Source of the DNA: Phycisphaeraceae bacterium
GTDB taxonomy: Bacteria; Planctomycetota; Phycisphaerae; Phycisphaerales; SM1A02
DNA length: 64,000 nucleotides
Direction: 5' to 3'
Assembly (NCBI GenBank): GCA_015709595.1
Contig: CP054178.1
Coordinates: 1,426,001 to 1,490,000 of the forward strand
Positions within the stretch are counted from its first letter, which is position 1, and each line of letters begins with the position of its first letter. A program made the translations under genes and the position numbers. The notes beneath the pieces are model-generated. The model made no database searches. It saw only the letters and a list, made by a program, of their open reading frames with translations, and was not told where the DNA came from. Shown here piece by piece: positions 5,197 through 29,495 of this stretch.

Positions 5197-5242
5197 GCGT
5201 GGAGCGGTGCCGGGTGGGCGCGGCGCTCCGCGTCACGCCTCG

Positions 5243-8170: not shown

Positions 8171-8230
8171 GGCTCAGTCCTCCCAGCGGGCGGCCGCCGC
8201 CTGCCGGGTCAGCCGGCGCGGCCGCGTGTG

Positions 8231-8998
8231 TCAGAAGGATTGGGAAGCGGACTGCCGATCTTCCACCACGAGCCGGGATTGCTGGTGATAAATGTCCGAA
8301 ATCGCCTCGTCGAACAGGGCGTCGTCGCTTCCCAGCCCCGCGCGCTCGGGCTCCGAGGCCTCATCCGCGGTGAAGGAATAGGTGGAAATGGTCTCGGCCA
8401 GGCGGCGCCGCATCATGTCCCGCACCTTCTGCAGATACCGGCTCACGGTCGGCTCGCTGACGCCCAGTTGCTCGGCGACCTCCTTGCCCGGCTTGCCGTC
8501 GAACACCCGCATCCGGTACACCTGAAAGGTCACGAACTCGGCCTCGCTCTCGACCTTGCGGATCGAGGCGTAGACCTTGGCCCGGAAGACGTTGGCCTCG
8601 TAGGCGGCATCGGCCTCCACGGTCGCCGCCTGGGTCATGAAGCGTTCGTCCAGTTCCGCCGGGCGCTTGCCGCCCCCCCGCTTCTGGGCCATGCGGCGGT
8701 CGATTTCATCGCCCAGGGCGTGCTTGGCGATGGAGAGCAGCCAGGTGGAGAATCGAGCCCCGCGCGTGGGGTCGTAGCGGTCGATCGAGTCGGAGAGCGC
8801 CGCGAGGGTCTCCTGCGTCAGATCGCGGACGGTTTCGACGCCGATGCGCCCCTTGCCCCAGCGTGTCAACTGGGCGCGCAGGACCGGGCCGAAGACCTCC
8901 CACAACTCGAACCACGCCGCCTCATCGCGGGCACGGAGCCGCTTGACGAAGTTCGTGGTCAGCGTGTTGAGAGCCGTTCTGGGCTGTTCACTGGCCAT
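8231..8998 (-). CDS. ECF-like RNA polymerase sigma factor
   Basis: The 255-residue product has a sigma-70 region 2, with RDLTQETLAALSDSIDRYDP and ARFSTWLLSIAKHALGDEIDRR, and a region 4 helix-turn-helix, GKEVAEQLGVSEPTVSRYLQKVR. The 60-residue C-terminal extension is acidic and unique. The ATG at 8998 begins MASEQPRT; a longer frame upstream would run through the direct repeat and is unlikely. The membrane kinase gene follows directly. Such sigma-kinase pairs are a known planctomycete theme in which kinase-linked signalling replaces an anti-sigma factor. Target promoters are not visible here. Confidence 0.88.
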   Translation of the reverse strand: MASEQPRTALNTLTTNFVKRLRARDEAAWFELWEVFGPVLRAQLTRWGKGRIGVETVRDLTQETLAALSDSIDRYDPTRGARFSTWLLSIAKHALGDEIDRRMAQKRGGGKRPAELDERFMTQAATVEADAAYEANVFRAKVYASIRKVESEAEFVTFQVYRMRVFDGKPGKEVAEQLGVSEPTVSRYLQKVRDMMRRRLAETISTYSFTADEASEPERAGLGSDDALFDEAISDIYHQQSRLVVEDRQSASQSF

Positions 8999-9052
8999 TC
9001 CGGTCCCTCTGGTGGATTGGGCGCCGAGGACAAACCTCGCCATTCGCCATTC

Positions 9053-9162
9053 ATGGTACGGCGTCCAAACCCGTTCTGATGTCGAATCCCCCTGATTCCG
9101 GGTCATGCCAGCAGGGAAACCGGCGGAAAATGCCCGGCCGGGCTGAAAAAAGCCGCCGCCCC
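9053..9162. repeat. Direct repeat, copy A
   Basis: A 62-base block (9053-9114), about 26 diverged bases, then a 22-base block containing GGCTGAAAAAAGCC (9141-9162) recur in the same order and orientation at 10753-10864. By eye about 5 of 62 positions differ in the first block. Read on the minus strand, four of the five altered positions fall at third codon positions of a frame encoding WHDPE(S/T)GGFDIRTGLDAVP. In this copy the frame stops immediately afterwards. The two copies bracket the two-gene island between them. Confidence 0.85.
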
Positions 9163-9225
9163 TGTACAGGGTGCCGAGTGGACCAAACCGTCCTCAGGCC
9201 GCCGAATTGCGAGGAGATCGTGAAA

Positions 9226-9927
9226 CTACGCGGTACTGGGAATCGGCGCATCCATCAGCCAGCCCTGATAGGCGGGCACCACGCGCACACGGAGTTCCGT
9301 AGTGTCGCCCGCGTCTTCCATCTTCACTCGAAGGAGACACGGCCCGAGTTGGAACCCCCCGGCGTCGTTCTGATTGAACGACAACTCCATGCCCGGAACG
9401 TCCGCCCAATCACTTGCCTCGGTGCCACCGGTCAAGCTGAACTGGAGTCTCACTGTCGCTCCGTCCCAGGCCTGCTCATGATCGGCGAAGGCGGAGAACG
9501 TTCCCGGCCCGCCTCGCCACTTCACCACGGTGCTCGCGCCGTTCGAGTCCATGATTTCATTGATGAAGTGATTGGCCGTCATGGTGTGCGGTGGCGAGGT
9601 TCCGGTGTCGGGCAGGTCATCCTGCGGCAGCCAGCCCTGGTGCGATGGAGCCAGGCGCACGCGGATCGACGTGCTTCCATCCGAGCCGGTCAGAATGACC
9701 TTCAACTCGCACGGGCAGAGTTGGAAGCCCGCGACTTTGCCCGTCGTGAAGGTCAAGTCGTTGGACACATCGATGAACCCGGAGCCCTGAATTCGCATCT
9801 GAACCTTGACGTTCGTCGCGCCGCCCCACGTGCCGATGGCGACAAACGTGCCCGGCCCTCCAGCCCACTCGATCACGTCCGAACTGGTATTGCCCTCATT
9901 GAGAACTTCGTTGATGAAACGAGGCAT
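9226..9927 (-). CDS. Two-repeat beta-rich protein, possibly phage-structural-like
   Basis: The 233-residue product is a tandem duplication of one domain. Residues about 2-110 and 115-225 both start with FINE, continue through GGPGTF and a Gly/Trp-rich strand (GTWGGATVKV or AWDGATVRL), then GFQLxPC, and close with LRVR followed by QGWL. No signal peptide or membrane segment is seen, and the two Cys pairs are conserved between copies. The start at 9927 gives MPRFINE. The pattern recalls small beta-sandwich proteins encoded near phage head and tail genes, but this is a tentative resemblance. Base composition is visibly lower in GC than in flanking genes. It lies 55 bases downstream of the PEP-CTERM-like gene. 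Confidence 0.62.
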   Translation of the reverse strand: MPRFINEVLNEGNTSSDVIEWAGGPGTFVAIGTWGGATNVKVQMRIQGSGFIDVSNDLTFTTGKVAGFQLCPCELKVILTGSDGSTSIRVRLAPSHQGWLPQDDLPDTGTSPPHTMTANHFINEIMDSNGASTVVKWRGGPGTFSAFADHEQAWDGATVRLQFSLTGGTEASDWADVPGMELSFNQNDAGGFQLGPCLLRVKMEDAGDTTELRVRVVPAYQGWLMDAPIPSTA

Positions 9928-9982
9928 GTCCACCCCCAAGTTGAGGAAGAAGTGAAGCGCGCCGAAGGACTGGCAACGGTGA

Positions 9983-10615
9983 TCAGTCCGATCGCCGCCT
10001 TGAACGAAAGAAGATCGGAAGAAGTGCGAACGCTGCGAGGGCTCCCGGCGCGGGAACCTCGCCCGCGTTGATGCCCTTGCCGGGGACTGTTTCGTAGGCC
10101 CACTCCAGTACCTCGAACGAGAACCACTCGATTCGAGTGGTGCCGCGCCGAACCGCGATCCAGCCGAAGTTGCCCGACTCGGTTCGGACGCCCATGTACT
10201 GCACGACACCCATGTCAAACGTGGTGATGAAGGGGCCTACCTCAAATTCGCTGAAAATGTGTGTCGCTCGCTGCACGAAAGACTCTTCGGCAACAGGCGC
10301 ACCACCTGCCAGTGAACTGGTGAGCGGCTCACCTTCATAGAGGACGATGGCGACGGACGCACCGCCGTTTGTCTCGTTCCAGAAGTCTGATGTCGAACGG
10401 TTCACCTGCCCCACGGCATTGCCGCTCCGAACGTTCGGCTGATCATTCGACGCTCGCGTGATGTCGAGCCAACTCTCCCAGTTGATCGCAAATCTCCAGT
10501 GCCAGTTGTAGTGACCTTCCTCGCCAGGGTCGGGGTTCACGAAGTGAACGATGTCCGCACGCGCCTCGGTAGCGACGGTGAAGACTGCGATCAGGATGAC
10601 TTTGCGAATGGACAT
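9983..10615 (-). CDS. Secreted PEP-CTERM-like protein
   Basis: This is a 210-residue exported protein. A short signal peptide (IRKVILIAVFTVATEARA) starts it, and it ends in PAPGALAAFALLPIFFRSRRR, the Pro-containing motif, hydrophobic helix and basic tail of exosortase-type sorting signals. The ATG at 10615 is preferred over the one at 10621, since GGAGGG lies seven bases before it. The middle is a soluble beta-rich region without a recognised domain. It precedes the two-repeat gene, and both lie inside the direct-repeat-flanked, lower-GC island. No exosortase is encoded in this window. Confidence 0.72.
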   Translation of the reverse strand: MSIRKVILIAVFTVATEARADIVHFVNPDPGEEGHYNWHWRFAINWESWLDITRASNDQPNVRSGNAVGQVNRSTSDFWNETNGGASVAIVLYEGEPLTSSLAGGAPVAEESFVQRATHIFSEFEVGPFITTFDMGVVQYMGVRTESGNFGWIAVRRGTTRIEWFSFEVLEWAYETVPGKGINAGEVPAPGALAAFALLPIFFRSRRRSD

Positions 10616-10959: not shown

Positions 10960-11898
10960 ATGGAACGAAAGGACAGAACCATGTGCATCGGCAAGACCCT
11001 TTTCCGCACCGCGTTGATCGGCGGGCTCGCCGTGGGTGGCCTGGTGATCCTGGCCCCGGACCACATGAAGGCGGGCTTCCATCAGGTCAAGACCAAGGTC
11101 CAGGCGACCATGGACACCATGATCGATGATCCGGTGGCCATCCGTCGCCAGCTCCAGTCGCTGGCCGAGTCGCTGCCGAAGAAGATCGGCGAACTGCAGG
11201 CCGAGATCGCCGAGGTGGACGCTCAGATCGCCCAGATGTCCCGCGATACCGACGTGGCCCGTCGCGTGGTGGCCAACACCGCCGGCGACCTGAACAACCT
11301 CACGCAGTTGATCGCCCGGGCGACCGACGCCCAGCGCGACGGCGGCGGGATCGTGCAGGTCCGCTACGAGGGCCAGCGGCTGGACCTCAACCAGGCCAAG
11401 GCCGAGTTCGTGCGCATCAGCAAGCTGCGCGAGCAGTACGCCGACCGCATCGCGCTGAACGAGCGCGACATGGGCTACCTGACGCAGCAGCGCGACCGGC
11501 TGGCGGCGCTGCTGGAGAACCTGCAGGGCGAGTACGCCGCCATCGAGGCCCAGATGTGGGCGATCGACCGCAAGATCGACGCCATCGCCCGCAGCGAGCG
11601 GCTGGCCGACACCCTCGAGGAGCGACACAACGCCATCGCGCGGTTCGGCAAGTTCGACTCCAAGTCGCTGGAGGAGATCCAGGGCAAGATCCGCAAGTGG
11701 GAGATCGAGACGACCGCCCGGCTGCAGGCCCTGGAGCAGCGCTTCGCCGGCAAGGACTACGAGCGCGAGGCGCAGCGACAGCTGGACTTCGAGAAGTCGC
11801 AGGGCGCGACCATCGAACTGCCCGAGGGCGGCGAGGAGAAGCCCGCCGTGGAGCGCACCGGCAACTCCTTCGCCTTCCTGCCCCGCGTGATCGAGTAA
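10960..11898 (+). CDS. Membrane-anchored coiled-coil protein
   Basis: This 312-residue protein has one N-terminal hydrophobic segment at about residues 15-32 followed by almost continuous heptad-like helix to about residue 275, rich in Glu, Gln, Arg and Ala with no Pro until the tail. GGAGG six bases before the ATG at 10960 supports this start; a second ATG at 10981 with AAAGGA is a reasonable alternative. The C-terminus is a short Pro/Glu-rich tail. The layout suggests a membrane-tethered scaffold or envelope spacer. It shows general similarity in architecture, not in motif, to PspA-like and other coiled-coil envelope proteins. It is followed by a strong hairpin terminator. Confidence 0.7.
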   Translation: MERKDRTMCIGKTLFRTALIGGLAVGGLVILAPDHMKAGFHQVKTKVQATMDTMIDDPVAIRRQLQSLAESLPKKIGELQAEIAEVDAQIAQMSRDTDVARRVVANTAGDLNNLTQLIARATDAQRDGGGIVQVRYEGQRLDLNQAKAEFVRISKLREQYADRIALNERDMGYLTQQRDRLAALLENLQGEYAAIEAQMWAIDRKIDAIARSERLADTLEERHNAIARFGKFDSKSLEEIQGKIRKWEIETTARLQALEQRFAGKDYEREAQRQLDFEKSQGATIELPEGGEEKPAVERTGNSFAFLPRVIE

Positions 11899-14558: not shown

Positions 14559-17078
14559 ATGAACACCACGACGCTCAATCGAACGCCGTCGTCGTCGCGC
14601 CTTGCGCGGGTCTTCCGGTCGGGGATGTCCCTGCTGGCGGCGGCCCTGTGCCTGCTGCTGCCGGTCCAGCGGGCCGCGGCGCAGGGGGGCGACGGGTTCA
14701 TTCCCTCGCCCTTCTCGAGCGAGTCGTTCAACAAGTCCATCACCACGCTCAAGCCCACGTACGAGCAGCGGCTGGCGCTGGAGGCGGCCCACGAGGCGTA
14801 CAAGACCCGCTTCCGCCAGCTGCGCGACAGCGAGGCGGAGATGATCCTGCGGCGGATGCACGAGGTGCAGTCCAACTCCATGTTCCGCGTGCCCAAGAAG
14901 CGCGACGTGGAGGAGCTGCTGCGCATGCGCCGCACGCTCATCGGGCAGATCATGGCCATGGAGGGCGAACTGTTCGACCGCATGGCCGAGGCGCTCCACG
15001 AGCGGCAGATGGGCGGGCTGGCCCGCATCCGGCGGGCCCGCGAGCGGGCCATCTGGAGCGAGGGCGACATGATGTCGGGCATGGGCGGCGGCGACGCGCC
15101 GGACCTCGTCAACATCGTCATGTCCCTTCAACTCACCGACGAGGAGCTGGGGCGCATCGATCCGGCGCTGGTGGAGTACGAGATCTCCATGAACGCGGCG
15201 GTGAAGAACCTGCACGACAAGGCCCTGGGCATGATCTCGTCGGTGGTGGACGTGATGAGCCAGATGGGGCTGGACGAGGTGGACATCACCGACCAGGACC
15301 AGATGATGGAGTACGGTCGCCGCATCCAGGAGGCGATGCAGCGTTTCATGAAGGAAGTGCAGGACGCCGCCGCCCGCGTGGACGCGGTGGGCGAGCGCGG
15401 GCACCTGTCGCTCATGCAGGTCATGCCCGCCTCGCGCGTGCCCGAGTACGAGAAGGCCTACCTGCGTCGTCGCTACCCGGATGTCTTCACCGACTGGACC
15501 TCGCCGGAGCGCATGTTCGAGCAGGCCCGGAAGATCGAGGGACTGGACGGAGGCGCGCTGGCCGCCATCGACGCCGCCGAGGCGGCCTGGAGGCCTCAGT
15601 ACGAGGCCGCGTCGAAGAAACTGATGACCATCAGCGACAAGACGCGCGCCAGTCAGCGCGCGAGTTTCGACTTCGACGGCTCGGCGTGGGAGGCGATCTG
15701 GCGCGATCGACAGGCCGCCGAGCAGGAGCGCAACACGATCAATCAGCGCGCCGAGCAGGCCCTGCTGGCCGCGCTGGGCGAGGAGCGGTTCCAGCCGCTG
15801 CAGTCGTACCGCGGCGTGGACGCGGACGCCGCGGGCCACGGGCCGGGGGCGGTGCTCGATGAGGCGGGGGGCGGCGTCATGGTCGGGGAGTCGCCCGAGG
15901 CGCCGGGCATGGGCATGTCGATGATGATCCGACCCGATCACCTGCTTCCCGCGCCCATCAGCGACGAGGAGTGGGCCGCCTACGCGGCGCGTCTGGATCT
16001 GTCGCCCGACGCCCGCGTGCTGACGGGTGAGTTCCTCAAGGAGTACCGTCGCCAGTTCGACGCGGTGATGGCCGACGACTTCCAGCGGCTGGTCAACGAG
16101 CCGCGCGGGAAGATGTGGGGGGAGGATGCGCTCAACGAGCAGGCGGCGTCGCAGGTGATCGCGGGCCGCCGCACCGTGGCCCAGCGGCTGGCGGCGCTGG
16201 AGGAGGAGTTCTTCGGCGACGTGGCGCTGGTCATCACCGACGCCCAGCGGGCGCGTCTGCCGATGATCCGCCGCGCCCGCGAGTGCATGATCTACGACGC
16301 GCGGGAGATGGCGCAGCGCGGCTACCAGGAAGGCGCGGTGAACCTGATGGAGCTGCTTGGCTCGCTGCGTCTGACCGACGCCGAGACACGGAGCATCGAC
16401 GCCGCCCTTCTGAAGTACGAGGAGCAGCTGCTGCCCATCGTGAAGTCGCAGCACGAGACCATGCTGGCCCAGGAGGAGGCCCAGATCAAGGGGCAGCCGC
16501 TGATGCGCAAGATTCAGCAGGATCCCGAGGCGAACATGGACGCCTGGGCCGAGTGGGAGCGGCTGATGGAGCCGCTGGAGGAGCGTCTGCAGCAGCTGAC
16601 GCGGCGTCGGCTGGAGCTGGACAAGTCGTCGCTGCCGGAGTTCATCGCCGCCCTTCCCCCCGACCCCGCCGCCCGGTTGAAGGAGCTGCACGATCAGCGT
16701 CGGTATCCGCGGGTCTTCCCCGACCGGGGGGACGCCCGGACATCGGTGGAGTCGGCGCTGCAACTGCCCGATCTCTCGCCGGCGCAGCGGACCACGCTGG
16801 AGCGGATCGCCGCGGAGCATGACGCCGGGCACCGCGCCCTGTGCCAGGAGATGGTGGCGCTGCTGGACTCGCTGGGCGAATCGCCCGACTGGGAGCCGCA
16901 GAACGCCAGGGCGATCATGGAGTGGCAGCGCAACCAGGAGCGGGTGGAGATTCTGCAGCTCGACCGCGCCGAGTTCAACGAAACCACGCGGCGCCGCCTG
17001 CGGGCCGTTCTGGGCGAACCCCAGGCCGCGCGGGTGCGCGGGCTGGGGGTGGGGTCTCAGGAGACGGCGTCGCGGTGA
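14559..17078 (+). CDS. Large secreted helical repeat protein with internal duplication
   Basis: This is an 839-residue exported protein with a signal peptide ending near residue 43 (PVQRAAAQGG). The rest is almost all charged helix. The two halves are related: the block LARIRRARERAIW...VNIVMSLQLTDEELGRIDPALVEYE (about 150-210) matches LPMIRRARECMIYDAREM...LRLTDAETRSIDAALLKYE (about 565-630). Each unit resembles an enlarged LTxxQ-like helical hairpin. A Met/Gly-rich linker near residue 445 separates the halves. A related protein is encoded at 36597-37835. GGGAG lies before the ATG. Function is unknown; an envelope-associated, Spy-like role is speculative. Confidence 0.75.
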   Translation: MNTTTLNRTPSSSRLARVFRSGMSLLAAALCLLLPVQRAAAQGGDGFIPSPFSSESFNKSITTLKPTYEQRLALEAAHEAYKTRFRQLRDSEAEMILRRMHEVQSNSMFRVPKKRDVEELLRMRRTLIGQIMAMEGELFDRMAEALHERQMGGLARIRRARERAIWSEGDMMSGMGGGDAPDLVNIVMSLQLTDEELGRIDPALVEYEISMNAAVKNLHDKALGMISSVVDVMSQMGLDEVDITDQDQMMEYGRRIQEAMQRFMKEVQDAAARVDAVGERGHLSLMQVMPASRVPEYEKAYLRRRYPDVFTDWTSPERMFEQARKIEGLDGGALAAIDAAEAAWRPQYEAASKKLMTISDKTRASQRASFDFDGSAWEAIWRDRQAAEQERNTINQRAEQALLAALGEERFQPLQSYRGVDADAAGHGPGAVLDEAGGGVMVGESPEAPGMGMSMMIRPDHLLPAPISDEEWAAYAARLDLSPDARVLTGEFLKEYRRQFDAVMADDFQRLVNEPRGKMWGEDALNEQAASQVIAGRRTVAQRLAALEEEFFGDVALVITDAQRARLPMIRRARECMIYDAREMAQRGYQEGAVNLMELLGSLRLTDAETRSIDAALLKYEEQLLPIVKSQHETMLAQEEAQIKGQPLMRKIQQDPEANMDAWAEWERLMEPLEERLQQLTRRRLELDKSSLPEFIAALPPDPAARLKELHDQRRYPRVFPDRGDARTSVESALQLPDLSPAQRTTLERIAAEHDAGHRALCQEMVALLDSLGESPDWEPQNARAIMEWQRNQERVEILQLDRAEFNETTRRRLRAVLGEPQAARVRGLGVGSQETASR

Positions 17079-22515: not shown

Positions 22516-22625
22516 GCGAGGAGAATAGGGCGGGGCGGACTGTCGGTTCCGGGCTGTCGGCTTGTTGACTGACGGCGGCTTTGACGTGTGCCGCGGCCGT
22601 GCGGTCACGCCAAACCCGTGTGTGC

Positions 22626-22759
22626 CACGGCCGTTTCGGCCGTGCGGCCGTGCGGGCGAGGTGAGACCTGCGGAGAGATGGAATCGTGCGGGAGGCCGCC
22701 GCCTGAGGTACTCGCGGTATCGGTCGCCTGGGGCCGCTCGCACGGCTCACAGAGCCGTG
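22626..22759 (-). repeat. Composite palindromic repeat, copy 1
   Basis: CACGGCCGTTTCGGCCGTG (22626-22644) and CACGGCTCACAGAGCCGTG (22741-22759) flank about 95 bases. In reverse orientation these match the interior of the copy at 24257-24381 almost throughout, including the words GATTCCATCTCTC and GCGAGTACCTCAG. The element thus behaves as a unit with hairpin ends. Confidence 0.85.
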
Positions 22760-23061
22760 GCACACTTCGGTCGGACGACGCGGCATACGCCTCTTCTGTG
22801 AGTTTCTGTGGATGAGTTGTGAGGAAGTGGGGTTCAGCGGCGGGCCATCGGCGATCGGTTTCGGGCTGGCGGCTGCAACGAACAGCCGCCAATGAACCTC
22901 GGAATGGGGCTCCGTCCGTCCCAATACCGCCAATTTGACCCCGGAATCGCTCGTTCATTCGCCTCGATCGCCAGGTCATCCCGCTTCCGCGTCAATCTGG
23001 GTAAACTTGAGCCGGATTATCTCGGCTCCGCAAAAACCCTGTAAACTCTGGAACTTCCCTC

Positions 23062-23089
23062 TTGGCACCTGCGAAAAAGTCGCCATAAT
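23062..23089 (+). promoter_or_regulatory. Putative sigma-70 promoter for the PEP-CTERM gene
   Basis: TTGGCA (23062-23067), a 16-base spacer, then CATAAT (23084-23089). It is the best match in the spacer and lies about 220 bases before the ATG at 23312. Confidence 0.45.
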
Positions 23090-23311
23090 GGAGAGGCGGT
23101 GTTGATCGGCTCGCCGGTCGCATCGCATCAGGTTCGTGGGACCAAGGGGAGAGCGATCGGGCCTTCACGACATGCTCGGGTGCATGGCTGGTGATGGTTC
23201 CCTCGCTCAATCCGGCGTCCTTGGGTCATGGTGGTCGAGCCGATCGTCGTGACTCACGGTTTCAATCATCCGAGCATTCGCTCACACACACGTAGACTAG
23301 AGGAGGATTCG

Positions 23312-24070
23312 ATGAGGAAGAGCACCACATTCGGGCTGGCCACCATCGCTGGCCTGTTCGTCGCCAGCTCCGCCACGGCGGGCGTCGTCATGTTCGACCT
23401 GCGCGGCGGCACGACCGACTGGGACGCCGCCCTGCTCAACGCGGGCAAGACCCTCAAGGCGTCGTGGGATTTCGGCACCCTGCCGGACTTCGGCCTGCTT
23501 GACGGAGACGAGCCGCTGGACTGGCGCGGCAGCCGGGGCAACGCCGCTGGCCGCGTTCCCGAGGGCTTCCTGCCCACCAACGTCCGCTTCCAGTCCAACC
23601 TGGATCAGTGGGGCGCCAACGGCGAGAACCCCGGTGGCGAGCGTGGTGGCGCCCAGCCGCTGGTTTTTGTCGGCCCGTCGCAGGGTTTCGGCAACACCAA
23701 GAACTGGCTCGGTTCGAACTTCGCCGCCGACTCGTTTGACATCGTGTTCGACGGCGGCACCAAGACCGCGGTTGACCTCGTCGTGTCGACGATTTTCGCC
23801 ACCAGCACTGATGTCAGCGTTTACGGCGCCAACAACGAACTGCTGATGCGCGTCACCCTGGCCGGCACCGCCAACGCCGGGTATCGCGTGGGCTTCCTCG
23901 CCACCGAGGGCAGCATCATCTCGCGGATCAACATCGACACCACGAGTCAGGCGCTCTACGAGGGCGTTCAGGGCATGATGAACGTCTACGAGGGCGTCAT
24001 CCCCGCTCCGGGCGCTCTGGCCCTGCTGGGCGTCGCCGGGCTGGTCAGCCGTCGTCGTCGCCGCGCCTGA
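23312..24070 (+). CDS. Secreted PEP-CTERM-like protein
   Basis: The 252-residue product has a signal peptide (FGLATIAGLFVASSATAG) and ends in VIPAPGALALLGVAGLVSRRRRRA, a Phycisphaerae-style sorting tail. GAGGAGG ends six bases before the ATG at 23312, an unusually good ribosome-binding site that fixes the start. The mature part is a beta-rich region of about 200 residues with paired segments (NVRFQSNLDQWG, FDIVFDGGTKTAVDLVV) like extracellular jelly-roll domains, but no family could be named. A strong Rho-independent terminator follows, so it is transcribed alone. Confidence 0.85.
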   Translation: MRKSTTFGLATIAGLFVASSATAGVVMFDLRGGTTDWDAALLNAGKTLKASWDFGTLPDFGLLDGDEPLDWRGSRGNAAGRVPEGFLPTNVRFQSNLDQWGANGENPGGERGGAQPLVFVGPSQGFGNTKNWLGSNFAADSFDIVFDGGTKTAVDLVVSTIFATSTDVSVYGANNELLMRVTLAGTANAGYRVGFLATEGSIISRINIDTTSQALYEGVQGMMNVYEGVIPAPGALALLGVAGLVSRRRRRA

Positions 24071-24113
24071 TCCGGTCTCCTCCGAGTCCGATCGCACTTA
24101 CGCGATTCACACG

Positions 24114-24147
24114 CCACGCCGCGGACAACCGCGGCGTGGTTCTTTTT
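24114..24147 (+). terminator. Rho-independent terminator
   Basis: Perfect 11-base-pair stem CCACGCCGCGG/CCGCGGCGTGG with the loop ACAA, followed by TTCTTTTT. It lies 43 bases after the stop codon at 24070. Confidence 0.92.
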
Positions 24148-24256
24148 GGTCGTGGTGGTGCGGCAGACGGACCGTCAGCGGTCGTCGGTTGTCAGTGATC
24201 GGCTCCGGCTGCTGCGCCGCGGCTTCCGACGACGTGTACCACGGTTCGGAGTGTGC

Positions 24257-24381
24257 CACGGCTCTGTGAGCCGTGCGAGCGGCTCCAGGCGACCGACGCC
24301 GCGAGTACCTCAGTGCGGCGGCCTCCCGCACGATTCCATCTCTCCTCAGGTCTCATCGCCCGCACGGCCGACACGGCCGTG
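24257..24381 (+). repeat. Composite palindromic repeat, copy 2
   Basis: CACGGCTCTGTGAGCCGTG (24257-24275) and CACGGCCGACACGGCCGTG (24363-24381) flank an 87-base interior shared, inverted, with 22626-22759. A second, more diverged unit follows (24443-24578), and extra single hairpins lie at 24403-24421 and 24598-24616. Confidence 0.87.
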
Positions 24382-24630
24382 GCACACGGGTTGGCGCGCC
24401 TACACGGCCGAAACGGCCGTGGCACACCAGTTCGGAGTGTGCCACGGCTCTGTGAGCCGTGCGAGCGATCCCAGGCGACCGACACCGCGAGAACCTCAGC
24501 GAGGCGCATCCACCGGACGACTTCATTGCTTCTGATGTTCCACCACTCCCGCGCGCCCGCACGGCCGAAACGGCCGTGGCACACGGGATGGCGCGTACAC
24601 GGCCGAAACGGCCGTGGCGCCAGGGCGGCC

Positions 24631-24957
24631 TTACCGCTGATCCGGCTCGATCGTCACCGTGAGGAGCTTGGTCTCGAACTGCTCGCGGAGCAGTTCGGCG
24701 TGCTCGCGGTGCGTGACGACCAGCAGCGCCACGCCGGTCTGGTGCGCTTCGAGCGTGCGCTGCAGCGCCTCGGTGTGGTTGAACTTGCAGATCTCCTGCA
24801 GGGCGCGGATCACGTCCTCCATGAAGTTGCTGTCATCGTTGTGCAGCAGCACCTTCCACGGAGGGAGCTTGTCAACGCGCGGCGGCGCGACCTTGGGGCG
24901 CTCCTGAAGCGCCGCCTGCCCCCCGCCGTTCGGCTGATTGGATTGCTCGCTCGCCAT
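24631..24957 (-). CDS. clpS: ATP-dependent Clp protease adaptor ClpS
   Basis: The 108-residue protein has a disordered N-terminal tail of about 30 residues and a ClpS core. The core carries the hallmark LHNDDSNFMEDVIRAL, the conserved CKFNHTEAL helix and the HREHAELLREQ segment. ClpS delivers N-degron substrates to ClpA/ClpC. With two ClpP genes in the same window this supports an N-end-rule proteolysis pathway. The gene is transcribed away from the terminase-type operon, from a shared spacer of 298 bases. Confidence 0.94.
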   Translation of the reverse strand: MASEQSNQPNGGGQAALQERPKVAPPRVDKLPPWKVLLHNDDSNFMEDVIRALQEICKFNHTEALQRTLEAHQTGVALLVVTHREHAELLREQFETKLLTVTIEPDQR

Positions 24958-25159: not shown

Positions 25160-25213
25160 TTGACTCGCGGAAATGTACGGCATATGTTCGGTATTGTTGA
25201 CGATCATGTCAAC
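25160..25213 (+). promoter_or_regulatory. Promoter and palindromic operator of the terminase-type operon
   Basis: TTGACT (25160-25165), a 17-base spacer and TATGTT (25183-25188) form a good promoter. The perfect inverted repeat GTTGACGATCATGTCAAC (25196-25213) covers the expected transcription start. This layout is typical of a repressor-controlled operon. The first gene encodes a helix-turn-helix protein and is the obvious candidate regulator. Confidence 0.7.
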
Positions 25214-25255
25214 ACCATCGGGCTGGTCCGAGGGGCAGCCCACAGGAGGCCGGAC

Positions 25256-25771
25256 ATGACCATGCTGACCATCGCTCCCCCGCCGCCAACATCCGGCCCA
25301 CCTGCTGCGCCGGTGTGCGACGGGAGTCGTTCTGCTCCGCGTCGCCAGCGCAGCCGGGGCGGAGGTCGTCGAGCCGCGGGGCTTCGTACGACGCGGCTGA
25401 TCGCCGAGCAGTGCCTGGACCTGGCGATTCACCTGGCGGAGCCCGATCGGTGGCTGATCGAGGCGGTGCTGCGCGGCGGTGTGTCGTGCGCCGCCACGGC
25501 GCAGCGTCTGGGGGTGCCCGAGCGCACCCTGCAGTGGCGCGTGAGGCGACTCATCGGGCGGCTGCGCTCGCCCGAGTTCGCCTTCATCGTCAACCAGCGC
25601 GAGGTCTGGCCCGAAGCGCGGCGCCGCGTGGGAGAGATCGTTCACCTGCGGGGCGGGACGCGGGAGCAGGCCGCCCGCGAGACCGGGCTGACGATGCACC
25701 AGGTGCGGCGCGAGCTGACGGCGATCGACGTGCTGATGGAGCAGGCCCGGGCCATGGGGCGCCTGCGATGA
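25256..25771 (+). CDS. Helix-turn-helix protein, first gene of the terminase-type operon
   Basis: The 171-residue product has a Pro/Arg-rich disordered N-terminus of about 45 residues followed by two helix-turn-helix-like units: SCAATAQRLGVPERTLQWRVRRL near residue 82, and TREQAARETGLTMHQVRRELTAID near 138. The first resembles sigma region 4 or a resolvase-type HTH. AGGAGG lies six bases before the ATG at 25256, and the stop overlaps the next gene by four bases. It probably binds the palindrome at 25196-25213 and autoregulates, or it may recruit DNA to the terminase. Neither has been shown. Confidence 0.72.
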   Translation: MTMLTIAPPPPTSGPPAAPVCDGSRSAPRRQRSRGGGRRAAGLRTTRLIAEQCLDLAIHLAEPDRWLIEAVLRGGVSCAATAQRLGVPERTLQWRVRRLIGRLRSPEFAFIVNQREVWPEARRRVGEIVHLRGGTREQAARETGLTMHQVRRELTAIDVLMEQARAMGRLR

Positions 25772-26484
25772 AGCGCATCACCAGCGGCGCAGGCGTCCCG
25801 CCCGTGAAGCGCTGCCGCCCGCGGGGACACTCCCCGCTCTGGTCGCTCCGTGTGCTCGAGGTCGCCTCGATCTTCGGTCTGGACCTCGATCACCTGCACG
25901 ACGCCGCCCGCGTCTTCGACCGTGCCGCGCTTGATCGTGCCGACGCACTGGCCTCGTGGCTGGCGCCGGGGGCCATCGTGCTGCTCACCGGCCCCAGCGG
26001 CTCGGGCAAGTCCACGCTGCTGCGGGCGATCGTCGAACGACTCTCCCATCGGGGTCGCGCGGTCATCGACCCCGGCGATGTTGAGATCGACGAGTCAGAG
26101 TGCGTGATCGAAACGATCGCCGGCTCGACCGAGGAGCGCTGCGCCCTGCTCGCCCGGGTGGGGCTGGCGGAGGCGCGGCTGCTGGTCTCGCCCGTGCGCC
26201 GACTGAGCGAGGGTCAGCGGGCGCGGCTGCGGACGGCGCTGGCCTTCGACGCGGCGCGGCGCCCGGGGGGTTCGGCGTCGTCGGTATCGCCGGGTGATGC
26301 CGCCGCGGTCATCGTCATCGACGAGTTCCTCTCGCCGCTCGACCGCGTCACGGCCTGCTGCGTGGCGCGGAGCGTGTCGCGGCTGACGCGGGCGTCAACC
26401 TGCTCGCTTCTCGTCGCCACGTCCCACGATGACCTGGCAGCCGCGCTGACTCCTGACGTCCACGAGCGGCTGGAGTTCGCGTGA
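25768..26484 (+). CDS. Stand-alone ABC-type ATPase (COG2401-like)
   Basis: This 238-residue soluble ATPase lacks any membrane segment. It has a Walker A (GPSGSGKST near residue 78), an ABC signature LSEGQRARLRTALAF near 150 and a Walker B VIVIDEFLSPLD near 188, with a switch His in ATSHDD. The Q-loop region is poorly conserved. By layout it matches the ATPase half of COG2401, proteins in which an ABC ATPase is fused to an acetyltransferase; here the acetyltransferase is the next gene. It is coupled to the HTH gene by a four-base overlap. A role in DNA handling rather than transport is likely given the terminase genes downstream. Confidence 0.8.
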   Translation: MKRITSGAGVPPVKRCRPRGHSPLWSLRVLEVASIFGLDLDHLHDAARVFDRAALDRADALASWLAPGAIVLLTGPSGSGKSTLLRAIVERLSHRGRAVIDPGDVEIDESECVIETIAGSTEERCALLARVGLAEARLLVSPVRRLSEGQRARLRTALAFDAARRPGGSASSVSPGDAAAVIVIDEFLSPLDRVTACCVARSVSRLTRASTCSLLVATSHDDLAAALTPDVHERLEFA

Positions 26485-26518
26485 TGTGATGACCAGCGAG
26501 GCGTTCCGCGTTGGGCGG

Positions 26519-26541
26519 CGCGACGTGAAGCGTCGCGCCTC
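26519..26541. repeat. Short palindrome between the ATPase and GNAT genes
   Basis: GGCGCGACG, the loop TGAAG, then CGTCGCGCC: a nine-base-pair stem in the 99-base gap inside the operon. It could be a partial attenuator or another interspersed palindrome; no T-run follows. Confidence 0.6.
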
Positions 26542-26583
26542 GACGTGGTGAACGACAGCCGCGTGTCACGTCCTCCATCGACC

Positions 26584-27348
26584 ATGACCTCCCCACCCAT
26601 CCAACTCGACGCCATCATCCTCGAGTCGGGCACGTCGGCCGACCTGCGCGCCCTGGAGCGATTCCACTACCGGGCCGGGAGGCCCGCGACGATCGACTCG
26701 ATTCTGCGCGCGGTGGTTCACCCCACCGATCCGGCGCCGCCGCTGCTCGTCGGCGTGCTGGTCACGTCGTTCCCCGTGCTCTCGTGCGCCGCCCGCGAGC
26801 GGGCGATTCCGCGCTACGCGGGGCTGACGCTGGCGTCGAAGGCGCGTCTGCTCAACCGCGAGGTCCGCACCATCAGCCGCGTCATCGTCGATCCGCGCTT
26901 CCGGGCCGTGGGCGTCGCGTCGCGTCTGGTGCGCCAGGCGATGGCGCGGCGTTCAACGCTCGTCATCGAAGCGATGGCGAGCATGGGGCGGGCCTGCCCC
27001 GTGTTCGAGCGCGCGGGGATGCGCCGATTCGACCCGCCGATCTCGCGCGGCACGCTCCGCCTGCTGACCACGTTCGACCGCGCGGGGATCGCGCTGCCCG
27101 TATTGGCCTCCACCCGGATGGCCGTCGAGACCATCGAATCGCTCGACGCCGTGACGCGCGGACACGTGATCCATGAACTGACTCGCTGGAGCCGCCGGGT
27201 GTTCGACCGCCGCCGCGATCGCACGCTGGCCTCGCCCGAGTCGAGCGCGCTGCCCGCCCTGGTTGCGCGGGCCCGCGAGCGGCTGGCGTCGAGGCCCGTG
27301 TACTACGTGTCGGAACGGCGCGAGTCAGACCGCCGTGATGCCGCCTGA
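26584..27348 (+). CDS. GNAT-family N-acetyltransferase (COG2401 partner domain)
   Basis: The 254-residue protein centres on a GNAT acetyl-CoA site: ISRVIVDPRFRAVGVASRLV (about residues 96-115) is motif A with the R-x-x-G-x-A/G loop, followed by VIEAMASMG and PVFERAGM. Those last two words are characteristic of the acetyltransferase part of COG2401. The N-terminal LERFHYRAGRP also fits. The ATG at 26584 (MTSPPIQLD) is preferred to the upstream one. The gene overlaps the next by 11 bases (ATGCCGCCTGA). What it acetylates is unknown; the fusion seen elsewhere implies it acts together with the ABC ATPase. Confidence 0.78.
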   Translation: MTSPPIQLDAIILESGTSADLRALERFHYRAGRPATIDSILRAVVHPTDPAPPLLVGVLVTSFPVLSCAARERAIPRYAGLTLASKARLLNREVRTISRVIVDPRFRAVGVASRLVRQAMARRSTLVIEAMASMGRACPVFERAGMRRFDPPISRGTLRLLTTFDRAGIALPVLASTRMAVETIESLDAVTRGHVIHELTRWSRRVFDRRRDRTLASPESSALPALVARARERLASRPVYYVSERRESDRRDAA

Positions 27349-28060
27349 CGCGAGCCGGCGCTCGGTGTTCTCGTCTTCCCGCGACTCGGAGGAGCGGCTC
27401 AACCCACCGGAGAATCGCATGTCGTCACCCGCTCGACGTTCCTCGTTCACCAACCACGCGGCTTGCGAAGCCGCTCCACTTGACACGGGCCGCAGACCCG
27501 CGGCGCCGCGTCGGCGTTCTGCGCCGACTGCGCAGCCGCTCTCGATGGATGAGTCCATCCTGCGGCGCCTCTTCCGCCGAGGCGATGAACCGGCTCGGCT
27601 GGCTCGATCGTGCGGGCTGTCGCTGGTCGATCTGGCGCGCTGGGCGTCTCGGGTCGATCACGTGGAGCTGCTGGTCGGCCTGGAGCGGGTGAGCGACGCG
27701 TGCTTCCGCGCCGCGCTGGCCCGCAGCCGCGTCATCGCCGCTCGAACGCTGACGCGGCTGGCCTCGGGCGACGGAGATGAGGCGCTCACCGACCTCACCC
27801 GCCGCAGCTGCGTCGATCTGCTCAGCGCGTGCGCGGAGCGGCGACGTGAGGCGCGGTGCGCCGCCGCCTCGACCGGCGTCGATCGCGCCCGTCGCGCCGC
27901 GTCGGTGAAGGACGCCGCCTCCCTCGCCCCGCCCGTTCCGGACGAGGAGGCGATTCTCGCCGCGCTGGAGCGCGTCGCGCGCGAAGGCGACGCGGATGAT
28001 GACGGCCGCGGCTCCGAGACCTCGTCACCCGCCGTCCCGGAGCAGTCCGATGCGGCGTGA
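27338..28060 (+). CDS. Small-terminase-like protein
   Basis: The 240-residue product has a disordered, basic N-terminal region of about 75 residues. A helical core follows (MDESILRRLFRRGDEPARLARSCGLSLVDLARWASRVDHVELLVGLERV) that reads like an HTH followed by oligomerisation helices, and the tail is Ala/Asp/Glu-rich. Position and size immediately before TerL fit a small terminase subunit (TerS), but sequence motifs alone do not prove it. Its start overlaps the GNAT stop by 11 bases, and its stop overlaps the TerL start by 11 bases in the same pattern. An alternative ATG exists at 27419. Confidence 0.55.
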   Translation: MPPDASRRSVFSSSRDSEERLNPPENRMSSPARRSSFTNHAACEAAPLDTGRRPAAPRRRSAPTAQPLSMDESILRRLFRRGDEPARLARSCGLSLVDLARWASRVDHVELLVGLERVSDACFRAALARSRVIAARTLTRLASGDGDEALTDLTRRSCVDLLSACAERRREARCAAASTGVDRARRAASVKDAASLAPPVPDEEAILAALERVAREGDADDDGRGSETSSPAVPEQSDAA

Positions 28061-29495
28061 CGATCTCTCCCGCGTGCTGCGTTCCGTCTCCCCGCGCACG
28101 CCTGACCAGTTGCACGCGCTGGTGCGGGTGATGCTGGGGTTCGATGTGCCTCGCGTACCCCGCTCACCGGGCGGTACGGCGCCCTTCGACTACCTGCGTC
28201 ACGCCTTCTTCGAGGATTCGTCCGGTCCGCGCGACTGCGTGGTGTGGGCCTGCCGGGGCGGGGGCAAGACGCAGCTGGGCGCGATCGCCACGCTGCTGGA
28301 CGTGCTCTTCAAGCCGGGCGTGCAGGTGCGCATCCTGGCGGGCTCGCGCGAGCAGGCGTCTCATCTGTACGTCGCGTTCCGCTCGATGATCGAGCGCGAG
28401 CCCTTCGCCGACCTGCTGGAGCGTCCGCCCACCGAGCACGTGACGCGCCTGCGCAGCGGGTCGCGCGTGGAAGCCCTGGCCCAGTGCGAGGCCTCGGTGC
28501 GCGGGCACCGCGTCCACAAGATCCGCTGCGACGAGGTCGAGCTCATCGACGACGCCGTGTGGCGCGCGGCGCAGCTGGTTACGCGCTCCACCCGCTGCGG
28601 CGGGGTGCCGGTGCGCGGCGCGGTCGAGGCCATGAGCACCATGCACAGGCCCAGCGGACTCATGAGCCGCCTGATCGAGGAAGCCCAAGCCGGCACGCGC
28701 CGACTCTTCCGCTGGAACGTGCTGGATGTGCTGGAGCGCTGCCCGAGTGATCGTGAGTGCGCCGCCTGCCCGCTGCGCGCATCCTGCCAGGGGCGGGCCA
28801 AGCGCGGGCGCGGCTTCGTGCGCTACGACGATGCGCTGGCCCATTTCGCCCGCATGGGACGCGACGACTGGCACACCGAAATGCTCTGCGACAGGCCCAG
28901 CGAGCGCGACCGCGTCTACCCCATGTTCGATCCGCTGGTCCACGTGCGCGAGTTCGATGCGCGGACCATCATCGGCCCGTGGCTGGGCGGGGTGGACTTC
29001 GGGCTTCGCTCCCCCACCGCCTTCCTGTGGGCGGTGCATGATGAAGTCAACGACGTGCTGCACGTGGTGGATGAGCACGTGCAGCGCGGCCTGCTGGCGC
29101 CGGCGCACATCTCGCGTGTGCGAGCCGCGCCCTGGCCCATGCCTCGCTGGGTCGGCGCCGACCCGGCGGGCAGCAACCGCAACGACCAGACGGGCCGCAG
29201 CGCCATCGGCTGCTGGCGCGAGGCGGGCTTCACCATCCGCGCCAGACGAAGCGACGTAGCGCCGGGGGTGGCGGTGGTGGCGGCGCGATTCATGCGGGCG
29301 GATGGAACTTCAGGGCTGGTCATCCACCCCCGCTGCCGCACGCTCATCCGATCACTGCTCGGGTACCACTACCGCCACGACCAGCCGGACGCGGAATCGC
29401 CGGTGAAGGACGGCCCGGACCATGCCTGCGATGCGCTGCGCTACCTGGTGGTGAACCTGGATCAGCGGTTTGCGACGGCGGCGGGAGCGTACTGA
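28050..29495 (+). CDS. Phage-type terminase large subunit (TerL)
   Basis: This is a complete 481-residue large terminase. The ATPase part has Walker A CRGGGKT (68-74) and Walker B with acidic pair DE (161-162) in IRCDEVELID. The RNase-H-like nuclease has Asp316 in GGVDFGLRSPTAF, Asp371 in VGADPAGSN and Asp461 in DHACDALRYL, so both activities look intact. A Cys cluster in the linker (231, 237, 240, 246) may bind zinc. By family knowledge TerL pumps DNA into a procapsid and cuts it. No portal, protease, capsid or tail gene is adjacent; 19 bases later a minus-strand kinase gene ends. Base composition matches the chromosome. Confidence 0.92.
   Translation: MRRDDLSRVLRSVSPRTPDQLHALVRVMLGFDVPRVPRSPGGTAPFDYLRHAFFEDSSGPRDCVVWACRGGGKTQLGAIATLLDVLFKPGVQVRILAGSREQASHLYVAFRSMIEREPFADLLERPPTEHVTRLRSGSRVEALAQCEASVRGHRVHKIRCDEVELIDDAVWRAAQLVTRSTRCGGVPVRGAVEAMSTMHRPSGLMSRLIEEAQAGTRRLFRWNVLDVLERCPSDRECAACPLRASCQGRAKRGRGFVRYDDALAHFARMGRDDWHTEMLCDRPSERDRVYPMFDPLVHVREFDARTIIGPWLGGVDFGLRSPTAFLWAVHDEVNDVLHVVDEHVQRGLLAPAHISRVRAAPWPMPRWVGADPAGSNRNDQTGRSAIGCWREAGFTIRARRSDVAPGVAVVAARFMRADGTSGLVIHPRCRTLIRSLLGYHYRHDQPDAESPVKDGPDHACDALRYLVVNLDQRFATAAGAY

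Follow-up and report, generated by a model that had tools for sequence, protein, structure and literature searches.

Gene transfer agents (GTAs) with an established genetic basis fall into three clades, two alphaproteobacterial and one spirochaete, and are characterised by proteins derived from caudoviricetes, the packaging of mostly random host DNA, endogenisation often at several loci, a head size that prevents their own genome from being fully packaged, mostly vertical inheritance and the delivery of DNA to cells (PMC9662315, main text). Here we compare with these systems a five-gene operon encoding a large terminase subunit (TerL), found at 1,451–1,455 kb of the 3.84-Mb genome of a Phycisphaeraceae bacterium (CP054178.1; G000 below, of family f1), within a stretch of 64,000 nt, positions 1,426,001–1,490,000, that we call the window. 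Working from sequences, we conclude that this operon is probably one arm, for control and packaging, of a domesticated element of tailed-phage origin, a GTA-like viriform that would be vertically inherited in the Phycisphaerae.

The element shares with the Rhodo-, Barto- and Brachygtaviriformidae (PMC9662315, main text) its caudoviricete-derived packaging and head proteins, as judged by protein similarity of TerL, the portal and the major capsid protein (MCP); its seat at several loci, seen in the genome as two arms with other genes between them; and its vertical inheritance, seen in comparisons with rpoB. It differs from them in belonging to another bacterial class, in its SU10-type capsid and SPP1-type portal, in the presence of ABC, GNAT and ParB genes in the terminase operon and in being known from its genes alone; the string 'Planctomycet' does not occur in the main text of that article. 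In Caulobacter, the S24 repressor RogA, which is LexA/CI-like, represses gafYZ, and these activate the GTA cluster (PMC9632790, in part). Titles and abstract openings, in a literature scope that left out most subscription journals and bioRxiv, gave no GTA or domesticated terminase in Phycisphaerae. For metagenome-assembled genomes of Phycisphaerales, a table in PMC8597652 records phage-like regions of 8 kb, incomplete and with tail genes, that are possibly related to the element, and parts of PMC13055281 and PMC4771703 deal, respectively, with a GTA of an alphaproteobacterial metagenome-assembled genome and with read counts in a lake.

Similar gene rows occur in two full phages of 103–115 kb, SSU5 of Salmonella and RHEph10 of Rhizobium, with TerL identities of 24.4% and 22.7%. 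The RHEph10 row comprises a ParB-like gene, an ABC gene, a GNAT homologue, a DNA-binding protein at the position of the small terminase subunit (TerS), TerL and a portal, with small genes between. The SSU5 record ends with two ParB-like genes, an ABC gene and a GNAT homologue and starts with a DNA-binding protein, TerL, a hypothetical protein at the portal position and a putative capsid; in both phages the ABC homologue stands ahead of the GNAT homologue. With the GNAT protein as a tblastn query we obtained matches in 19 phage records, of the SSU5 type and from Rhizobium phages, in genes titled 'MK0520 protein, ABC-type ATPase fused to a predicted ...'. For the MCP, the annotated SU10-type capsid (PF17236) of Sporosarcina phage Lietuvens shows 30% identity over 94%, and all 232 phage records with a match stay below 60%. 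Two IMG/VR contigs do exceed 60%, L331 with 65% and L332 with 75% (to the MCP of G202); L332, a 39-kb contig filed as viral, carries the portal-scaffold-MCP-neck and tail-like genes of the element and is possibly a misfiled piece of chromosome.

A head module beside the window

The earlier note on this DNA, made from the letters of the window, described an orphan operon with no phage genes on either side. Within the window, no phage genes were seen beside the operon in the part of its open reading frames (ORFs) that was scanned, and a search for hidden tail genes in those at 5207-10071 (three), 10960-11898 and 14559-17078 gave a best E with PHROGs of only 0.0088. The orphan claim itself fails just beyond the left edge, at 1,406–1,423 kb, where a portal gene is followed by a scaffold-like gene, a SU10-type MCP gene and a neck-like gene; a repressor comes next, about 0.1 kb from the edge.

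The PF05133 profile, chosen because the RHEph10 portal carries this SPP1-type domain (E 2.3e-9), found a portal in 38 of 41 genomes with TerL versus 2 of 14 control genomes, with an E of 6e-19 for the portal of G000. Portal, scaffold-like protein and MCP follow one another in G000 and in 12 relatives picked for having a portal (the MCP being a fragment in G053), and a neck-like gene comes after the MCP in G000 and in 11 of the 12. The MCPs, with 56–74% identity to the reference row, belong to PF17236, SU10_MCP (1.6e-84 for G202), and the C-terminal part of that of G000 matches phrog_1328 (1e-63). The labels scaffold, neck, tail and lysis used here are suggested by position and weak matches.

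A profile search for the MCP covered 80 of 100 chosen genomes and was positive in 37 of the 40 with TerL; it was negative in all 29 TerL-free genomes from the family (26) and order (3) of G000, in three genomes of family f8 and in eight from outside the class, G855 and G583 with their distant TerL among them. Judged from these genome sequences, the packaging and head arms are kept and lost together within the class. The note had held that a portal, capsid and tail cluster elsewhere, if tied to the operon by phylogeny, would tell against its orphan motor; such a portal and capsid cluster exists, given these counts and the trees, which resemble that of rpoB as described below.

Distribution, inheritance and selection

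Relatives of TerL were found in 221 of 397 genomes of the class at E ≤ 1e-3 and in 196 at E ≤ 1e-20, the latter count being made by hand from the result rows. By the same kind of count, 168 of the 221 genomes have a single match, and the double matches that were checked (G066, G090 and G119) each represent one gene in fragments. In the phylum as a whole, E ≤ 1e-20 is reached by 51 of 392 genomes, 30 of them in the class and 21 outside it, and only two of these 21, G855 and G583, match most of the TerL profile. Among named genomes there are at least 404 relatives, from which 80 loci with flanks of up to 10 kb were kept for comparison; 78 of the 80 carry Planctomycet- or Phycisphaer- titles.

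TerL follows the host phylogeny. In 30 genomes, with rpoB reading frames picked by homology, TerL and rpoB agree with a Mantel r of 0.80 that none of 999 permutations reaches; all 12 TerL splits with support ≥95 recur in the rpoB tree, 11 of 16 do so in the reverse comparison, and there is no supported conflict. The corresponding r is 0.64 for both the MCP (ten genomes, 0/999 permutations) and the portal (eight genomes, 1/999), the portal sharing 5/5 splits with rpoB, and the rpoB tree contains both supported splits of each. Median omega (Nei-Gojobori; pairs with dS 0.05–1.5 out of 71, which were listed with slightly different gene ends, share lineages and are not independent) is 0.17 for TerL (47 pairs), 0.21 for TerS (9), 0.30 for GNAT (41), 0.33 for ABC (29) and 0.38 for the helix-turn-helix (HTH) protein (28), with no pair at or above 1 for any gene. 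By this measure TerL is under purifying selection. The agreement with rpoB and the low omega bear out the domestication and retention that the note had proposed, and the frameshifts or neutral evolution that it named as contrary evidence were mostly not found, the instances being in-frame stops in TerL of G053, G128, G190 and G093. Taken as sequence evidence, this makes it very probable that the operon and the head module are the packaging and head arms of a domesticated, vertically inherited phage element.

The terminase operon

The operon consists of five ORFs on the + strand that overlap by 4, 11 and 11 bases and are otherwise separated by a gap of 99, as the note had described (Table 1). 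Profiles grown from its five proteins and run on the 80 loci found the order HTH-ABC-GNAT-TerL in 66, with a recognisable TerS in 19 of these; the other 14 loci have just 3–2,541 bases upstream of TerL. The search of relatives for this gene order, which the note had suggested, thus shows it kept in 66/66 loci that reach the HTH gene. Of 20 deeper loci, 13 contain ABC and GNAT, and seven have a ParB-like gene placed after GNAT and before TerS; a cluster of ParB-like genes is present in 22 of the 80 loci. Some loci have other genes between TerS and TerL, one of which, read by eye from its sequence, is putatively ribose-5-phosphate isomerase B. The base composition matches that of the chromosome, as was noted earlier (GC of 72.0% in the operon, 68.3% in the window and 67.2% and 70.8% in the flanks).

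Table 1. Features of the operon, its putative control region and the insertion in the capsid gene (positions are those of the window unless given for the contig)
Feature	Position	Strand	Matches and remarks
HTH protein, 171 amino acids, first operon gene	25256-25771	+	HTH_23 7.7e-6; weak sigma-region-4 matches
ABC-type ATPase, 238 amino acids	25768-26484	+	ABC_tran 1.8e-9; phrog_293 1e-16
GNAT-like acetyltransferase, 254 amino acids	26584-27348	+	phrog_886 5.4e-15; Acetyltransf_10 9.1e-5, just under cut-off
Small-terminase-like (TerS-like) protein	27338-28060; conserved part from ~27545, start uncertain	+	position before TerL
TerL, 481 amino acids	28050-29495	+	ATPase and nuclease motifs intact, four-cysteine stretch; Terminase_6C 2.8e-6; phrog_2 5e-15
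Operator-like palindrome TGTTGAC-N6-GTCAACA	25195-25214	.	upstream of HTH gene
LexA/CI-like repressor of G000	contig 1425060-1425959, ~0.1 kb outside window	-	52% identity
Element inside MCP gene of G000, ~11.6 kb	G000:C1 ~1409254-1420819, left of window		splits MCP after ~60 codons

TerL had been called intact in the note, and its family matches, model and residues agree. The AlphaFold model (mean predicted local distance difference test score, pLDDT, of 88) aligns with TerL of phage D6E with a Z of 22.6 over 368 residues; the root mean square deviation (rmsd) of 17.0 across both domains indicates that their mutual placing differs from that in D6E. Single domains compared with the terminases of P74-26, P22 and SPP1 give Z of 17.9–19.7 and rmsd of 2.8–3.9. 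In an alignment of 110 TerL rows, which includes the protein of G000 and some genomes twice, the ATPase residues K73, T74, D161 and E162 are kept in 109 rows (one gap), the nuclease residues D316, D371, D457 and D461 in 110 and E342 in 108. Sequence and predicted structure thus agree that TerL is a genuine terminase large subunit. Four cysteines between motor and nuclease, C231, C237, C240 and C246 (window 28740-28787), are kept in 108–110 of the rows and form a possible zinc site; the pattern is absent from RHEph10 TerL.

The HTH protein is a candidate activator of the particle genes. The note had matched the ATPase and the acetyltransferase to the two halves of COG2401; the MK0520-titled phage genes and the phrog_293 match favour such a pair, and the label COG2401 itself is presumed. 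To our knowledge, no role has been tested for the ABC, GNAT and ParB-like genes in phages. The naming of the fourth protein as TerS-like is suggested by its position, a family motif and a predicted helical model with an HTH and two long helices (pLDDT 81, predicted template modelling score, pTM, 0.50), and to that extent the note stands; likeness to phage TerS proteins was not significant. No match was found in Pfam, PHROG or NCBIfam, a profile comparison with the TerS-position proteins of SSU5 and RHEph10 gave no significant similarity, and the best Foldseek results were E 0.96 (phBC6A51) and E 2.7 (HK97 TerS). Neither PADLOC nor NCBIfam yielded a specific match to any of the five operon proteins.

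Repressor and operator

A divergent XRE-S24 (LexA/CI-like) repressor, recognised with Pfam, lies within 1.5 kb in 42 of the 60 loci with enough upstream DNA. Its standing over a short operon with a DNA-binding protein is a likeness of design to Caulobacter, drawn by analogy. RogA is without key cleavage residues (PMC9632790, in part), whereas the repressor of G000 keeps the Ala-Gly cleavage site, the GDSM serine and the FKR lysine, and most relatives do so as judged by loose patterns (cleavage site 45/53, Ser 49/53, Lys 49/53). Unlike in most relatives, 25 kb with an M56 peptidase, an EVE domain, two ClpP and other genes lie between repressor and operon in G000.

The palindromic operator of the earlier note is present as a single exact copy in the genome, with seven further places at two mismatches. 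It shares an 18-base geometry, not its letters, with GTTC-N10-GAAC palindromes that sit between the repressor and the HTH gene in part of the relatives, and among the regions of 66 relatives its own form occurs only as a one-off in L126. A consensus of the GTTC operator scores ≥14 in 22 of 42 regions versus 0.55 of 42 in single-base shuffles; having been drawn up after viewing the sequences, it is a lead only. In five genomes the GTTC form occurs at 1–9 places per genome (nine in G000, one in G323) versus 1–2 for the reversed control. Dispersed palindromic repeats of another type, GTGCCACGGCCGTNTCGGCCGTGCG, lie at window 22606-24633, 21565, 36386, 36469 and 46841 and also upstream of the portal of G000.

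Insertions and other phage genes

The element inside the MCP gene of G000 carries genes for a large serine recombinase, an AAA_25 protein, a Phage_capsid_4 protein, a sigma-like protein and an N6/N4 methyltransferase; no direct repeat of more than 8 bases was found between the stretches at its ends. It appears to be a satellite-like element seated in a GTA-like capsid gene. With the MCP interrupted, G000 can probably make full capsids only if the element leaves. In G032:C1 the portal matches in two pieces, at ~3226064-3226636 and 3293738-3294880, about 67 kb apart; one piece lies beside the capsid gene, and this is perhaps another insertion into head genes.

HK97-type genes, considered as the head genes of the element, pointed away: the portal PF04860 was found in 6/41 genomes and the capsid PF05065 in 4/41. 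Phage_capsid PF05065 has no match in G000 at E ≤ 0.001, and the weak PF04860 match of this genome belongs to a prophage that is unrelated to the element and has a gpA-type terminase of its own. This prophage (G000:C1 ~3075243-3102269) has an integrase, helicase, primase, gpA-type terminase, capsid, decoration and tape-measure genes besides the weak portal match, and related genes occur in G107, G365 and G056.

Alternative explanations

Several observations weigh against an element with two arms that makes DNA-packaging particles. The PF05133 search missed the portal in G329, G116 and G345, the MCP is missing in G345, G401 and G409 (87, 74 and 80% complete) and is present only as a fragment in G053 and G329. 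Just 3/7 MCP splits recur in the rpoB tree. TerL is found without ABC and GNAT nearby in 7/20 deeper loci, and in family f1 it is strong (E < 1e-100) in only 14 of 151 genomes, G000 included, with four more weak, so that it is dispensable there. The MCP gene of G000 is split, and tail-like genes were found neither in 112 kb of this genome nor in the G414, G459 and G032 stretches. The only exact operator of G323 precedes the operon and none precedes the head genes, a placement compatible with two-step control, which it fits without proving. Finally, the arms are 169 kb apart in G056, 250 kb in G046 and 0.7–1.1 Mb in G018, G063 and G315.

The same domesticated element might make particles for a purpose other than gene transfer, such as defence, kin killing or public-goods lysis, the loading or cutting of DNA by TerL being a by-product. 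Tail-like genes were seen in five of the 13 portal regions (G060, G189, G072, G053 and G202), so that many members, among them G000, may be tailless or keep their tail genes at another place; that such genes were unrecognised near the head module in the other eight, and that small lipoprotein-like or membrane-protein-like genes adjoin it in several regions, lends this explanation some weight. Lysis-like genes occur in part of the genomes. The joint retention of portal, scaffold-like protein, MCP and TerL, the last with its motor and nuclease residues intact, speaks against it; tailocins are not known to use a capsid or a terminase. We consider it unlikely.

Horizontal spread of an ordinary prophage, whole or as a remnant, would account for phage-derived genes, for the stops in some TerL copies and for the interrupted MCP. 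We regard this as very improbable, because TerL, MCP and portal agree with rpoB and because host genes, such as phosphoglycerate mutase, lie between the arms in G060. Moreover, viral TerL relatives in IMG/VR show 24–37% identity over parts of the protein (best 80 among the matches listed), no integrase or replication family was found among nine G060 ORFs scanned with Pfam, two of them already assigned, and the recognisable prophage of G000 lies elsewhere with its own gpA-type terminase and capsid; the serine recombinase of G000 is part of the insertion that splits the MCP.

Just as improbable is a true orphan terminase retained for DNA processing without a capsid. The lack of phage genes beside the operon in the scanned part of the window, the lowest median omega of the five genes for TerL and the seven deeper loci without ABC and GNAT agree with it, and G345, 87% complete, has TerL without a portal or MCP match; the joint presence and absence of TerL and MCP and the portal in 38/41 genomes contradict it, and in G000 a portal and a capsid are tied to TerL. 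The gene-transfer-agent-like function that the note had listed as one option is supported, and its motor without capsid genes is not.

The layout of the arms bears on whether they form one element. Portal and TerL share a contig in 22 of the 38 genomes, and in 17 of these 22 they are 8.5–83 kb apart. In G060, 25 kb hold a repressor, HTH-ABC-GNAT-ParB-TerS-TerL, about 6 kb of host genes, including the phosphoglycerate mutase iPGM and a glycosyltransferase, then portal-scaffold-MCP-neck and tail-like genes. In G459, of the family of G000, head module, repressor and operon are consecutive within ~18–23 kb, and the order in G000 is the same but for the 25 kb that split the repressor from the operon, with no ParB found in G000. 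Within ≤10-kb flanks of the 80 named TerL loci there is a portal piece in one (L144) and an MCP in none. A separate head element that is common in the same genomes by chance would fit the three genomes with arms 0.7–1.1 Mb apart and is the least probable explanation, given the MCP in 0/29 genomes that lack TerL within this family and order, arms 8.5–14 kb apart in G060, G069 and G209 and within 23 kb in G459, and a RHEph10 row in which terminase and PF05133 portal adjoin each other and accompany ABC and GNAT.

A possible mode of action and its significance

By analogy with RogA and GafYZ of Caulobacter, the S24 repressor would hold down the operon of the domesticated GTA-like element, and its inactivation would release it; DNA damage is the likely signal, because the cleavage site and the Ser and Lys residues are kept. 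The HTH protein would then switch on the head genes, and SU10-type capsids would be filled through the portal with chromosomal DNA that TerS and TerL cut and pump in, with the ABC, GNAT and ParB-like proteins, from the ancestral phage module, perhaps choosing or preparing the DNA ends. Such particles would carry host DNA to kin. That the element makes DNA-packaging, GTA-like particles in many hosts seems likely to us; whether these transfer genes we would put at even chances. We give a similarly balanced assessment to the fullest account, namely that this is a further, independently domesticated GTA lineage, derived from a phage with a row like that of RHEph10 and SSU5, acquired within the Phycisphaerae, spread over the chromosome and controlled by a cleavable LexA/CI-type repressor, which still makes DNA-transferring particles in many species and has a parasite of its own, a serine-recombinase element that targets the capsid gene for insertion and may act as an off-switch.

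The case illustrates that reading a single window can overlook the other arm of a split element. The MCP and the four-cysteine TerL provide marker genes for virome data. Portal, capsid and terminase genes that are inherited together across a planctomycete class would bring another phylum into the GTA phenomenon. They offer a test of how long, and why, such elements persist, as well as a candidate route, regulated by DNA damage, for the transfer of genes among environmental bacteria.

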